A DNA stretch of 64,000 nt from Streptosporangium lutulentum (GTDB lineage Bacteria; Actinomycetota; Actinomycetes; Streptosporangiales; Streptosporangiaceae): positions 6,882,001-6,946,000 of the forward strand of contig NZ_JAUSQU010000001.1 of the NCBI RefSeq assembly GCF_030811455.1, in the 5' to 3' direction. Below the pieces are notes generated by a model. That model was not told the origin of the DNA. It was given only the letters and a program-made list of their open reading frames with translations, and made no database searches. Shown in pieces: positions 38,351-48,533 of this stretch (positions are counted from its first letter, which is position 1; every line of letters begins with the position of its first letter). Made by a program: the position numbers and the translations under genes.

Positions 38351-39100
38351 ATGCCACCCGAGGGTGTTAACACGCTCTCCATCTCGTCCGGCGTGCACGG
38401 GACCGCCCTCGTTATCCGGGCGATCGGAGAGCTCGACTACGACTTCGCACCGATCTTCCGGAGGAGGATCACCCAGATCTGGAGCATGAGCGCCGGCGAC
38501 CCGTCACCGCTCTCGTCCGAGCTTCTGACTCCGCCCTCCGGCGCGTCACCGCTCTCGCCCCCGCCCGAGACCCCCTCACCGCTCTCGTCCGGGATCTCGT
38601 CACCGCTCTCCCCCGCGACCCCCTCACCGCTCTCCCCGGAAAGCCCGTCACCGCTTTCCCCCGCGACGCCGTCACCGCTCTCCCCGGAGACCCCCTCACC
38701 GCTCTCCCCGGAAAGCCCGTCACCGTTTTCCCCCGCGACTCCCTCACCGCTCTCCCCGGAAAGCCCGTCACCGCTCTCCCCCGAACCCCCGGTGACACCG
38801 GCTCCCCTCTCAGCGGGGCCCGCGCCCCCGCTTGAGGCGCCGTCCGGCATGCCGATCCAGGCCGGGACCGTGCCGTGGCTGATCCTCGATCTGACGGAAC
38901 TCACCTTCTGCGACTCCACCGGAATCGCGGAACTGCTGTGGATCCTGCACAGGAGCCAGGAGACGGGGACTCGCCTGGTTCTGGCCGGGGCAAGCCGGAC
39001 GCTGCGCCACATGCTGACCACCACCGGGCTGCTGCCCTACTTCACCATGTCCGCCTCCGTGGAGGCCGCCCTGGAAGAGGGAGAGATCCAGGCCTCCTGA
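38351..39100 (+). CDS. STAS-domain protein with a proline/serine octapeptide insert
   Basis: A 249-residue protein starting at ATG 38351 after AAGGAG. Residues 1-45 match the first half of an anti-sigma-antagonist STAS domain (ALVIRAIGELDYDFAPIFRR); residues 175-245 match the second half (WLILDLTELTFCDSTGIAEL, then a C-terminal helix). Ser189 in CDSTG is the usual phosphorylation site. Between them lies about 125 residues of low complexity: eight exact-length octapeptides SPLSP(A/E)(T/S)P at residues 84-147 plus degenerate copies. A normal STAS domain is only 100-120 residues long. It probably works in a partner-switching pathway, but no partner kinase is nearby. Confidence 0.85.
   Translation: MPPEGVNTLSISSGVHGTALVIRAIGELDYDFAPIFRRRITQIWSMSAGDPSPLSSELLTPPSGASPLSPPPETPSPLSSGISSPLSPATPSPLSPESPSPLSPATPSPLSPETPSPLSPESPSPFSPATPSPLSPESPSPLSPEPPVTPAPLSAGPAPPLEAPSGMPIQAGTVPWLILDLTELTFCDSTGIAELLWILHRSQETGTRLVLAGASRTLRHMLTTTGLLPYFTMSASVEAALEEGEIQAS
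38600..38791 (+). repeat. Eight tandem 24-base coding repeats inside the STAS gene
   Basis: Eight consecutive 24-base units, each coding S-P-(L/F)-S-P-x-x-P, in register from 38600 to 38791. Units alternate between an ATP-ending and an ESP/ETP-ending type, suggesting duplication of a 48-base pair. Copy number is likely to vary between strains by slippage without shifting the frame. Confidence 0.9.
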
Positions 39101-39361
39101 GGGAGGAGCTCCGGGGCGGCTGAGAACTACCGGGGAGCGGGCGGACAGCGGTACCGCTCTCCGGCGTGGAACGAGCTCTCGATCAGGGATCAGTGCCGTC
39201 GGAGCCTCCACAAGGCTCGCATATCGGGTCACCGCCACCGCGGAAAATCTTCCTCGAAGAAGTCGTGAGACGTATGTCGCCAAAAAGCACTCGTTGGCAT
39301 GACAAGTGCGTCAATATCTTCTTACTGGGAAAATCCACTAGCCCTTGAAAGTGGGGTCCCG

Positions 39362-40066
39362 ATGCGAAAGATACCGCCTCGGATGACCGCGGAGTCCCTG
39401 CCCGAAAGGCTGGACGAGCTGCCCGTCGAACCCAGGGAATTCCTTGCCCTCGTCTCCGTGGACTTTACCGGGACATATCAGGTATACCTCGCGGCCAAGG
39501 ACGAACGCATCAAAATGACCCGGCTCTCCATGAGCCTGCTCGGCGCCCCCTTCGCCGCCGCGATCGCGCTGGTCAGCGCGAAGGTGGTCAGCCCGGTCGC
39601 GCTGACCACCTGGGACGCCGTACCCGCGTATCTGTTCGCGACGGTCGCCGGGTTCGGGGTGCTCAACGTGCTGCCCTTCCTGCGGCTGATCGAGGCGGTC
39701 AACGCGCACATGAGGACCGCACGGGCCCTCAACAACTTCCGCCTGCTCTACGTCGTCCAGCTCAAGGATCACCTCTCAGCCCTCGGCTGGACCCCCAACC
39801 TGCCGGTTGACCCCCGATACCCGGAAACCTACGCGCCACTGGCCTGGCCGGGGATCAACGTGATGATGCTGGCCCTGGTCAACAGTTCCTACATCGCGAT
39901 CGGCGTGCTCGGCCTGATCGGGGCCGAGCCCACCGCGGCCCTGATCCTGGTGGTCATCGGACTGCTCGCGCTGATCCACTATTTCGTCTACTACGTCCGC
40001 GCCAATGTCTCCCGGCAGCGCCGGCTCCCACACAATCCTTTCCATTTTCCCAACGTGGAGACCTGA
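39362..40066 (+). CDS. Four-helix membrane protein of unknown function
   Basis: A 234-residue protein starting at ATG 39362. About 50 cytoplasmic residues are followed by two transmembrane helices (about 57-75 and 85-107), a soluble loop of about 55 residues rich in charged and aromatic residues (HMRTARALNNFRLLYVVQLK), two more helices (about 163-185 and 188-210) and a basic tail. The stop is immediately followed by the ATG of the thymidylate-synthase-like gene (TGAATG), so the two are co-translated. I do not recognise a family. Confidence 0.85.
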   Translation: MRKIPPRMTAESLPERLDELPVEPREFLALVSVDFTGTYQVYLAAKDERIKMTRLSMSLLGAPFAAAIALVSAKVVSPVALTTWDAVPAYLFATVAGFGVLNVLPFLRLIEAVNAHMRTARALNNFRLLYVVQLKDHLSALGWTPNLPVDPRYPETYAPLAWPGINVMMLALVNSSYIAIGVLGLIGAEPTAALILVVIGLLALIHYFVYYVRANVSRQRRLPHNPFHFPNVET

Positions 40067-40768
40067 ATGCCCGACCTCCTCAGATTCGCGTCTTGTGGGG
40101 AGACGTGGATCTGGCTGATGCGACATGTGAAGGACAACGGCGGGCCCGCCGAGGACGACCGGGGCCCGATCATCGAAGCCTCGGCGGTGCTGTTCGAGAT
40201 CACCGGGCTGACCTGGGACGATCCGGTCCTGAAATCCTACGGCGACGCGAGGAAGATCCCGCTGTACGCCAGCAAGTTCACCGAACGGACGATCGTGCCG
40301 CCGTTCAAGTACAGCTACGGCGGGCGGCTCCGCCAGGCTCTCGACGTCGACCAGCTCCGCTGGATCACCGATGTGCTCCGCGCCAAGCCGTACACCAAGA
40401 GTGGCTGGATCTCGCTCACCGTCCCCGGCGAGGCTCCCAACGCGGTTCCCTGCCTGACCGGTCTGGCCTTCCGGCTCCGCTCCGGACGGCTGGTCATGAC
40501 CGCCGCCTTCCGCTCGCAGAACGCGTTCACCGCCTATCTGAACTACGTGCCACTGCGTAGTATCCAGAGCGAGGTCGCCGGTGACCTTGGAGTGAGCTGT
40601 GGGTCAATGAGGGTCTTCGTCGACGTTCCTCACATCTACGTCGCGGACGAGGCGATGGTCGAGAAGATCCTCCAGCTGTCGGAGCACGATGGGCTCGGCG
40701 AGGGAGAGTCGACACCAGGTCCTGCTCGTCGATCTCGACGGGACCGTGGTCGACTACGCCCAGACTGA
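40067..40768 (+). CDS. Thymidylate-synthase-like protein (pyrimidine C5-methyl/hydroxymethyl-transferase fold)
   Basis: A 233-residue protein; typical TS is about 264-300. Recognisable parts: DQLRWITDVLRAKP, catalytic-type Cys129 in VPCLTG (TS has PCH), FRSQN at 148-152 where TS has QRSCD, and DVPHIYV at 186-192 with His189 and Tyr191 at the DxHxY position. Departures: the arginines that hold the phosphate are K111/S112, the RSxD aspartate is Asn, and the region of the base-selecting asparagine reads LNY. So dUMP methylation is unlikely; dCMP/CMP hydroxymethylase-type chemistry is one option. It sits between the membrane protein and the nucleotidase in one operon; its last 80 bases overlap the next gene. 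Confidence 0.75.
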   Translation: MPDLLRFASCGETWIWLMRHVKDNGGPAEDDRGPIIEASAVLFEITGLTWDDPVLKSYGDARKIPLYASKFTERTIVPPFKYSYGGRLRQALDVDQLRWITDVLRAKPYTKSGWISLTVPGEAPNAVPCLTGLAFRLRSGRLVMTAAFRSQNAFTAYLNYVPLRSIQSEVAGDLGVSCGSMRVFVDVPHIYVADEAMVEKILQLSEHDGLGEGESTPGPARRSRRDRGRLRPD

Positions 40769-41351
40769 GCGTCTGGCCCTCCACGAGATCCACCGCCGGT
40801 TCTTCCGTACCGGCCGGGCCGAGTTCCTGAGACAGTTTCACGCCGCCAACGAACCGCTCTGGGCCGCCTACCGCGAGCACCGGATCACCCTCTCCGAGCT
40901 GCGACTGGAACGCTGGGCGCGGATGGGCGCCCAGCCCCGGGTGGCCTCCGCGTTCGAAGACGCGCTGGGGCGCAACGTGACCCTCTTCTCCGAGGCCCGC
41001 GCCGCCCTGCGCCGGCTGTCACGGAGGTTCCGGCTGGCCCTGGTGACCGACGGCATCGCCCACGTCCAGCGGGCCAAGCTCAGCCGTACCCGGATCGGCG
41101 GGTTCTTCGAGCACGTGGTGATCGCGCCCGAGGTGGGGCTGCGCAAGCCCGACGGCGAGCTGCTCCACCACGCTCTGAACCTGCTGGAGGCCAAAGCGGA
41201 CGACGCCCTGATGGTCGGCGACTCTCCGGTGAGCGACGGCGGCTGCGCTGAGGCCGCGGGCGTGGACTTCTGCTGGGTGAACCGCACCGGAGCGTCCCCC
41301 ACCCCCGGCATCCCCGTTCACCGCACCGTCGCCGACCTCGGCACCGTCTAG
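40689..41351 (+). CDS. HAD-family nucleotidase, YjjG-like
   Basis: A 220-residue HAD hydrolase. Motif I is LLVDLDGTVVD (residues about 12-22), motif II LVTDG, motif III lysine in VGLRKPDGE and motif IV VGDSPVSDGG. The cap segment ANEPLWAAYREHRITLSEL closely follows that of E. coli YjjG, a nucleotidase that removes phosphate from non-canonical pyrimidine nucleotides. Its start lies inside the end of the TS-like gene in another frame, so expression is tightly coupled. It would suit dephosphorylation of the TS-like enzyme's product or of damaged pyrimidine nucleotides. Confidence 0.88.
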   Translation: MGSARESRHQVLLVDLDGTVVDYAQTERLALHEIHRRFFRTGRAEFLRQFHAANEPLWAAYREHRITLSELRLERWARMGAQPRVASAFEDALGRNVTLFSEARAALRRLSRRFRLALVTDGIAHVQRAKLSRTRIGGFFEHVVIAPEVGLRKPDGELLHHALNLLEAKADDALMVGDSPVSDGGCAEAAGVDFCWVNRTGASPTPGIPVHRTVADLGTV

Positions 41352-41365
41352 AACCGTCGCCACGC

Positions 41366-41475
41366 GGTGAAGTCACCGCGCAGCGAAGCCACCGCGCTAT
41401 GGAGTCACCGCACAGCGGAGCCGCGCCGTGGAGTCACCGCACCGTGGAGACGCCGCACGGTGCCTTCATGCGGTG
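41366..41475. repeat. Degenerate short repeats between the YjjG-like gene and the ArsR-like operator
   Basis: The motif GTCACCGC(A/G)C, with small variations, recurs about every 20-25 bases five times (for example GAAGTCACCGCGCAGCG, GGAGTCACCGCACAGCG, GGAGTCACCGCACCGTG). It is noncoding on both strands as far as I can see. Confidence 0.5.
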
Positions 41476-41482
41476 ACGACAA

Positions 41483-41532
41483 CTTGCAGAGAGTTCTCTG
41501 CGGAGAACCCTATGCAGAGGACTCTCTGCAAG
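41483..41532 (+). promoter_or_regulatory. Twin-palindrome operator of the HTH/MFS operon
   Basis: Two 19-base arms (41483-41501 and 41514-41532) are inverted copies at 18 of 19 positions around a 12-base spacer. Each arm is itself palindromic: GCAGAGA-GT-TCTCTGC and GCAGAG-GACT-CTCTGC. It ends 14 bases before the regulator start, so the regulator at 41547 probably represses its own operon through two dimers. Confidence 0.8.
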
Positions 41533-41546
41533 GTATCGTCATCGTC

Positions 41547-46968: not shown

Positions 46969-48533
46969 CCAAGCCAACACCGGTCGACGACGACACCAGA
47001 CGACTCGCCGAACTCGGTTACAAGCAGGAGCTCTCCAGAACCTGGAGCGGCTTCTCCAACTTCGCCATCTCCTTCTCGATCATCTCCATCCTGGCCGGGT
47101 GCTTCACCACCTTCGGCCAGGCCTGGAACAACGGCGGTCCCGTCGCCATCTCGTGGGGCTGGCCGCTGATCTCGATCTTCATTTTGATCATCGGTCTGTG
47201 CATGTCGGAGCTGGTGTCGGCCTATCCGACCGCCGGCGGCATCTACTGGTGGGCCGCCAAGATGGGCAGGCCGATCCACGGCTGGTTCACCGGGTGGTTC
47301 AACCTCATCGGCCTGATCGCGGTGACGGCCTCGGTCGACTACGGCTGCGCGACCTTCCTGAACATCACCCTCAACCGGTTCTTCCCCGGCTGGGACCCCA
47401 CCCTGACCAACGCGTTCATCCTGTTCGCGGTCATCCTCGTGCTGCACGGCCTGATCAACGTCTTTTCCCACCGGCTGATCGCGACGCTGCAGAACGTCTC
47501 GGTGTGGTGGCACGTGTTCGGCGCCGCGGTGGTCGTGCTGATCCTGGTCTTCGGCCCCGACTCGCACCAGTCGATGTCGTTCGTCTTCACCGAGACGATC
47601 AACAACTCCGGCTTCTCCGACTCGTCCTACTGGTTCTACGTGCTGCCGCTCGGCTTCCTGCTGACCCAGTACACGATCACCGGGTTCGACGCGTGCGCGC
47701 ACGTGTCGGAGGAGACCCAGGGCGCCTCCACCGCCGCCGCCCGGGGACTGTGGCAGTCGATCTTCTACTCGGCGATCGGCGGCTGGGTCCTGCTGCTGGC
47801 CTTCCTGTTCGCCGCCACCGACGTGAACGCGGTCAACGACGCGGGCGGCTTCGTCGGCGCCATCTTCGACAGCGCGCTCCCCGGCAACCTGGCCACGGCG
47901 ATCTTCGCGATCTCCACCATCGGCCAGTTCTTCTGCGGGATGAGCTGCGTGACCTCGATGTCCCGGATGACCTACGCGTTCTCCCGGGACGGCGCGATCC
48001 CCGGCTGGCGCCTGTGGTCGAGGGTGGACGCCAACCGGACCCCCGTCAACGCGATCGTCTTCGGCTGCACGGCCGCGCTGATCCTCACCCTGCCCGCGTT
48101 GTACGAGGCCCCCGGCGGCTTGCCGCTGGCCTTCTACGCGGTCGTGTCGGTGGCGGTCATCGGCCTCTACATCGCCTTCGCGATCCCGATCTGGCTCCGG
48201 CTGCGGATGGGCGACCGGTTCCAGCCGGGTCCCTGGACGCTGGGGGCGAAGTACAAGGTCATGTGCTGGATCGCCATCGTCGAGATCGCCGTCGTCTCCG
48301 TCTACTTCATCATGCCGCTGGTCCCGGCCGCCGTGCCGTTCAGCGCCGACTTCACCTGGACCGCGGTCAACTACGCGCCGATCGTGGTCGGCGTGATGGT
48401 GCTGGCCGTGGGCCTGTGGTGGGCGCTGTCGGCCAGGCACTGGTTCACCGGCCCGCGCCGTACGGTCGACGCGGCCGACGCGGCCGACTCGGCCGGCCCC
48501 GCGGACCAGGCCGGAATGGAGACGATCGGCTGA
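46965..48533 (+). CDS. APC family amino acid/choline permease
   Basis: A 522-residue protein of about 12 transmembrane helices, starting at GTG 46965. The APC opening SNFAISFSIISILAGCFTTF is present, then SELVSAYPTAGGIYWWAAKM and TGFDACAHVSEETQGA, as in GABA/choline/ethanolamine permeases of actinobacteria. The C-terminus has an Ala/Asp-rich tail. It is co-translated with the kinase at 46021. Confidence 0.92.
   Translation: MTKPTPVDDDTRRLAELGYKQELSRTWSGFSNFAISFSIISILAGCFTTFGQAWNNGGPVAISWGWPLISIFILIIGLCMSELVSAYPTAGGIYWWAAKMGRPIHGWFTGWFNLIGLIAVTASVDYGCATFLNITLNRFFPGWDPTLTNAFILFAVILVLHGLINVFSHRLIATLQNVSVWWHVFGAAVVVLILVFGPDSHQSMSFVFTETINNSGFSDSSYWFYVLPLGFLLTQYTITGFDACAHVSEETQGASTAAARGLWQSIFYSAIGGWVLLLAFLFAATDVNAVNDAGGFVGAIFDSALPGNLATAIFAISTIGQFFCGMSCVTSMSRMTYAFSRDGAIPGWRLWSRVDANRTPVNAIVFGCTAALILTLPALYEAPGGLPLAFYAVVSVAVIGLYIAFAIPIWLRLRMGDRFQPGPWTLGAKYKVMCWIAIVEIAVVSVYFIMPLVPAAVPFSADFTWTAVNYAPIVVGVMVLAVGLWWALSARHWFTGPRRTVDAADAADSAGPADQAGMETIG

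Follow-up and report, generated by a model that had tools for sequence, protein, structure and literature searches.

The described systems closest to the locus analyzed here are MilA, the cytidine monophosphate (CMP) 5-hydroxymethylase of the mildiomycin pathway (structures 5b6e/5jnh), the methanogen-type thymidylate synthases (TS) of TIGR03283, AfhB, the deoxycytidine monophosphate (dCMP) hydroxylase of phage HY126 (9iqu), and the YjjG/YfnB family (TIGR02254; structure 3ed5). Lys133' of MilA is described as an auxiliary ribose determinant in PMC5175136, and a further AfhB structure, 9iqc, is titled as a riboflavin-dependent monooxygenase with dCMP and flavin adenine dinucleotide (FAD). Here we describe three consecutive genes, encoding a membrane protein (MP), a TS-like protein, and a HAD phosphatase, in a stretch of 64,000 nucleotides (the window) from Streptosporangium lutulentum (contig NZ_JAUSQU010000001.1, positions 6,882,001 to 6,946,000). 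They belong to an MP/TS-like operon conserved in one actinobacterial family, sometimes with a phosphatase, that may form an undescribed pyrimidine-nucleotide pathway or membrane signaling unit. A literature search of open-licence PubMed Central (PMC) papers found no description of the trio, in keeping with the original prediction, made from the DNA sequence alone. The features of the locus are as follows.

39362..40066, forward strand: MP, a 234-amino-acid membrane protein from the open reading frame (ORF) list, with four predicted transmembrane (TM) segments and a conserved cytosolic loop at residues 109-162
40064..40069, forward strand: TGAATG junction of the MP stop and the TS start
40067..40768, forward strand: TS-like protein, 233 amino acids, thymidylate-synthase fold, from profile matches and a predicted structure
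40451..40453, forward strand: codon of Cys129, the counterpart of the TS nucleophile in the alignment (Cys146 in E. coli)
40689..40768, forward strand: 80-base overlap of the TS-like and HAD genes
40689..41351, forward strand: HAD phosphatase, YjjG/YfnB-like, 220 amino acids, from profile and structure matches

The ORFs and the DNA bear out the predicted layout, with the TGA/ATG abutment and a HAD start 80 bases ahead of the TS gene end (TS stop codon counted). The ORF list also holds an alternative MP start at 39299 (not compared in relatives); in most relatives a start codon aligns with 39362. All three genes look to be under purifying selection, because pairwise ratios of nonsynonymous to synonymous substitution rates have medians of 0.25 (MP) and 0.31-0.36 (TS) among 20 sequences that include our own, and of 0.42 (HAD) among 17, although the gene overlap may bias the TS and HAD values.

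We searched 345 genomes of the order, scoring only the best ~8 candidates per genome, so that absences hold at that depth. Simple gene calling missed or shortened several genes, and all counts rest on ORF and BLAST scans. The MP profile matched 58 genomes, and the DNA of all of them shows MP and TS side by side on one strand (58/58). With the TS start set to the one closest to the MP stop, 38 of the pairs abut exactly and 13 overlap by one base, with 55 falling between -4 and +2 bases. The TS-like query matched 153 genomes: 58 with MP, 64 in genus g56 without it, and 31 whose matches are weak, none better than E 4.5e-16. At E up to 1e-20, 19 genomes have HAD, always within 109 bases of a TS match and overlapping it in 17. 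In the genus of S. lutulentum, MP occurs in 13 of 16 genomes and HAD in 10 of 16. Across 396 phylum-wide genomes, again with only the best few candidates per genome scored, 6 besides our own matched the TS query (27-33% identity), and the single further MP profile match (E 9e-4, four internal stops) was taken as chance. Homologues thus do co-occur elsewhere, and the three genes very probably form one pathway or complex. The proposed three-gene unit holds as an MP-TS pair beside which alone HAD is found at this threshold, but not as an obligate trio, with HAD absent from 39 of the 58 loci. Split frames were also seen, in MP of one genome (L026, 2130-2623) and in TS of another (L073), reflecting either true decay or sequencing error.

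Structure comparison places the TS-like protein in the TS fold, and most nucleotide-site residues are present, in agreement with the predicted relationship to TS. Aligned to TS, the nucleophilic Cys and the main nucleotide-binding residues are found in 58/58 MP-linked proteins, with Lys-Ser in place of the two phosphate-binding Arg residues from the other TS subunit. Eleven chosen sites (32, 82, 84, 111, 129, 149, 150, 152, 159, 189, and 191) are invariant in all 58, compared with 60 of 198 core positions overall (hypergeometric 1e-6, a figure that treats sites as independent). Arg32 may be the counterpart of Arg21; this is our reading, which the alignment does not show. An equivalent of E. 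coli TS Glu58 was sought, but the region is gapped and holds no clearly conserved acid, so we make no claim for it. The folate side of the site is altered. The folate-contact Asp (E. coli Asp169) is replaced by Asn152 in 58/58 MP-linked proteins, and the C-terminal tail over the folate site is missing: in the model, the last helix ends at residue 207 and residues 218-231 have a predicted local distance difference test score (pLDDT) <50, and one relative already stops at residue 199. Classical one-carbon transfer therefore cannot be assumed, and the predicted one-carbon modification at C5 is supported by the fold and the nucleotide residues but not by the folate side.

The predicted site is kept in full wherever the membrane partner is found, and the MP-less proteins (L062-L069, L071-L073, L078-L083, and L142-L188; n=64) serve as a comparison. 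None of these has Lys111, Tyr82, Asn159, or Tyr191, and Arg32 is present in 13. Cys129 is kept in 30, Tyr84 in 35, and Asn152 in 46 (Asp in 18); L073, with its broken frame, was scored from the longer piece. With their active site partly lost, these genes could possibly encode pseudoenzymes with another role. Together, the 58 MP-linked proteins and their 64 MP-less relatives are a ready sequence set for probing the purpose of the active site.

MP has four hydrophobic segments, with both ends and a long loop that we assign to the cytosol, and this loop (109-162) holds 25 of the 58 invariant MP positions (22 sequences). No relative stands out in Pfam, NCBIfam, PHROG, or PDB, and no SLATT family appears among Pfam matches (E up to 1) of MP or the 22 family members, some of which have weak Pfam hits. 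In the fold comparison with ExbB/TolQ/MotA-type channels, the top Foldseek E is 0.33 and the TM-score about 0.2-0.3. Neither transporters nor channels offer a convincing relative of MP, which weakens the predicted role in export. The conservation of MP on its cytosolic face, its strict pairing with TS, and the retention of nucleotide residues in a protein whose folate-contact Asp is Asn and whose tail is missing would also suit a sensor-effector system, in which a receptor, the TS-like protein, binds a pyrimidine nucleotide, perhaps covalently, and gates or regulates MP while HAD lowers the ligand. We hold this tentative alternative to be on the unlikely side: the invariance of Cys129 (58/58) is more than reversible binding needs, and MP belongs to no known family of channels or receptors and lacks a convincing match in fold.

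HAD contains an HAD_2 domain match, and its best solved relative is YfnB (3ed5, E 1.9e-18). TIGR02254 matches it over nearly its full length at 138.7 bits, so that HAD is indeed closest to YjjG/YfnB, as had been predicted, but falls under the family cut-off of 159.9. From these matches we infer that HAD is a nucleotidase.

Beyond the fold, the conservation, and the MP-TS pairing, which are observed directly, we propose that the operon specifies a pyrimidine-nucleotide enzyme with a membrane partner, with a probability of roughly 40% for the mechanism as a whole. The TS-like protein would bind a uracil 5'-monophosphate (deoxyuridine or uridine monophosphate), and Cys129 would attack C6, activating C5 for substitution. 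The donor, which would do without the usual folate contacts, could be a non-folate cofactor or a folate bound differently. MP, via its conserved cytosolic loop, would hold the enzyme at the membrane and take up or respond to the product, and HAD, where present, would strip the 5' phosphate from the product or from excess substrate. Among these parts, catalysis by the TS-like protein on uracil nucleotides is somewhat favored, and action of HAD on its product or substrate falls a little short of even odds. A bolder version, in which the product of the TS-fold enzyme is a modified uridine nucleotide acting as a dedicated signal to the enzyme's own membrane protein, with HAD as the off-switch, is improbable; if true, it would be nucleotide signaling built on a metabolic enzyme and not on a nucleotide cyclase.

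Several points weigh against a membrane-partnered enzyme. The eleven sites were picked by us and include Asn152, at the folate position, as well as Arg32 and Tyr82, whose roles are guessed, and the assignment of Asn159 is made uncertain by a one-residue shift in the MilA alignment, where its column is off by one from MilA Asp186, the residue that selects cytosine. The MP-less clade retains Arg149 (64/64), Ser150 (55/64), and His189 (60/64); further, it is one clade, such that one event may account for both the absence of MP and the decay of the site. The MP model, in which long helices run on from TM1 and TM2, is of middling confidence (pLDDT 73.9). Of the 58 MP-TS operons, 39 lack HAD. Finally, T4 dCMP hydroxymethylase has no C-terminal tail and yet works with folate, so the missing tail does not exclude folate.

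To compare surroundings, flanking genes common to locus pairs were counted over 32 loci, window included. Flanks are held in common within genera and between close genera (Planobispora/Planomonospora; the genera of L053-L056; Nonomuraea-like loci). Between the main groups, some Streptosporangium loci share 2 flanking genes with Planobispora/Planomonospora and other groups share fewer than 2; with few flanks in common, the MP-TS pair is therefore kept although its neighbors differ. Several members branching outside the groups of Streptosporangium and Nonomuraea carry the unit at a single amino-acid biosynthesis locus (serA and DUF2079 are Pfam labels; the ilv genes are presumed from their sequences). 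In L050/L089 (one genome) serA comes after MP-TS-HAD, in L070 ilvBNC comes before it, and in L057 and L088 ilvBNC precedes MP-TS, with serA further on. Similarly, serA lies downstream of the MP-less TS gene in 17/17 loci read (of 64), directly adjoining it in 15, and 15 of the 17 also have a DUF2079 gene close by. In our reading, the amino-acid locus would be the old site of the unit, which would later have moved elsewhere, lost HAD repeatedly, and lost MP in a single genus. The base of the family is not resolved in a tree of 43 TS proteins, of which 24 are MP-linked, 15 MP-less, and 4 outgroup, so that MP gain in the other lines, or two gains of HAD, would also be compatible with it.

The layout of an enzyme with a membrane protein resembles nucleotide-signal defence, and the original prediction had allowed for a role of MP in defence; on that reading, a modified nucleotide would be made or policed, with a membrane effector. 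PMC13092281 reports a newly validated defence system with a TS domain, and a figure legend there names dNMP kinase, 5-hmdU (5-hydroxymethyldeoxyuridine) DNA kinase, and NMAD domains as well. Searches of our own locus nonetheless make such a role quite improbable. PADLOC gave 0 families for MP, TS-like, and HAD proteins (E up to 1), and in viral contigs no relative was confirmed among 114 pattern matches to the TS profile and 29 to the MP profile. Close genera share flanks, and the trees are broadly vertical in look (the operon surroundings were not scanned for defence genes). The only MP match in plasmid records is an 11.85-Mb record of Nonomuraea gerenzanensis, listed as a plasmid but probably a chromosome. 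TS residues 1-208 matched 5 phage records at 24.7-33.6% identity (all <60%), three of them annotated as thymidylate synthase.

Elsewhere in the window, the ORF just upstream of MP, which we take to be STAS-like, has at 38564-38791 ~9.5 copies of a 24-base repeat coding Pro/Ser-rich SPLSP repeats. Degenerate repeats with a GGAGTCACCGC motif (41359-41462) lie between the HAD gene and the next gene, presumably a helix-turn-helix (HTH) regulator. Upstream of this HTH-like gene and a major facilitator superfamily (MFS)-like gene, AGAGAGTTCTCTGC-like elements at 41485-41535, partly palindromic by eye, look like a candidate operator. ARAGORN calls a 95-base tRNA-Phe at 47807-47901, antisense within a permease-like ORF; the call is probably false because Rfam, run at gathering thresholds, finds no RNA family anywhere in the window.

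The host genome (10.6 Mb), whose closest named relative is Streptosporangium subroseum (TS-like protein 93% identical), encodes one ThyX and has no match to PF00303 thymidylate synthase (ThyA) or PF00186 dihydrofolate reductase (DHFR), RibD-like and other DHFR types not having been searched. The TS-like protein itself has no PF00303 match (E up to 1) and matches TIGR03283 over residues 5-195 at 60.3 bits. Together with its TS fold and nucleotide residues, this match could point to a divergent back-up synthase for thymidine monophosphate. We consider that very improbable: the score is far under the cut-off of 174.55, ThyX is present, PF00186 DHFR is absent, the folate Asp is Asn, the tail is missing, and the membrane partner would go unexplained. 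L074 and L077 were tried as methanogen-type TS and rejected (77-83 bits against 174.55).

MilA shares with the TS-like protein the TS fold, the nucleophilic Cys, and the His/Tyr sugar contacts, and is among its closest solved structures; Lys111 aligns with MilA Lys133'. With a nucleotidase-like HAD, these features would fit a mildiomycin-like biosynthetic operon for a C5-modified nucleoside, comprising MilA-like modification, dephosphorylation by HAD, and export by MP. Such an operon is unlikely, given that Ser150 replaces the ribose-selecting Ala176 of MilA, HAD is absent from 39/58 loci, few flanking genes are common to the main genus groups, and MP lacks an exporter match above cut-off. Identity to MilA is ~20%, the folate-Asp column holds Asn where MilA has Asp, and the MilA C-terminal helical domain is missing from the TS-like protein, the membrane partner belonging to the window system. 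AfhB is 16% identical to the window protein. HAD differs from YjjG/YfnB in that, at E up to 1e-20, it occurs only beside MP-TS in the 345 genomes. The window protein is similarly short to TIGR03283 synthases, but a relative that passes the cut-off (L035, 200 bits) has Asp at the folate position where the window protein has Asn, and the membrane partner sets the window system apart from them. A TS-fold subfamily tied to a membrane protein, with its folate Asp changed to Asn and its Cys and sugar and base contacts kept, points to chemistry or signaling of which the open-licence PMC papers searched hold no description.
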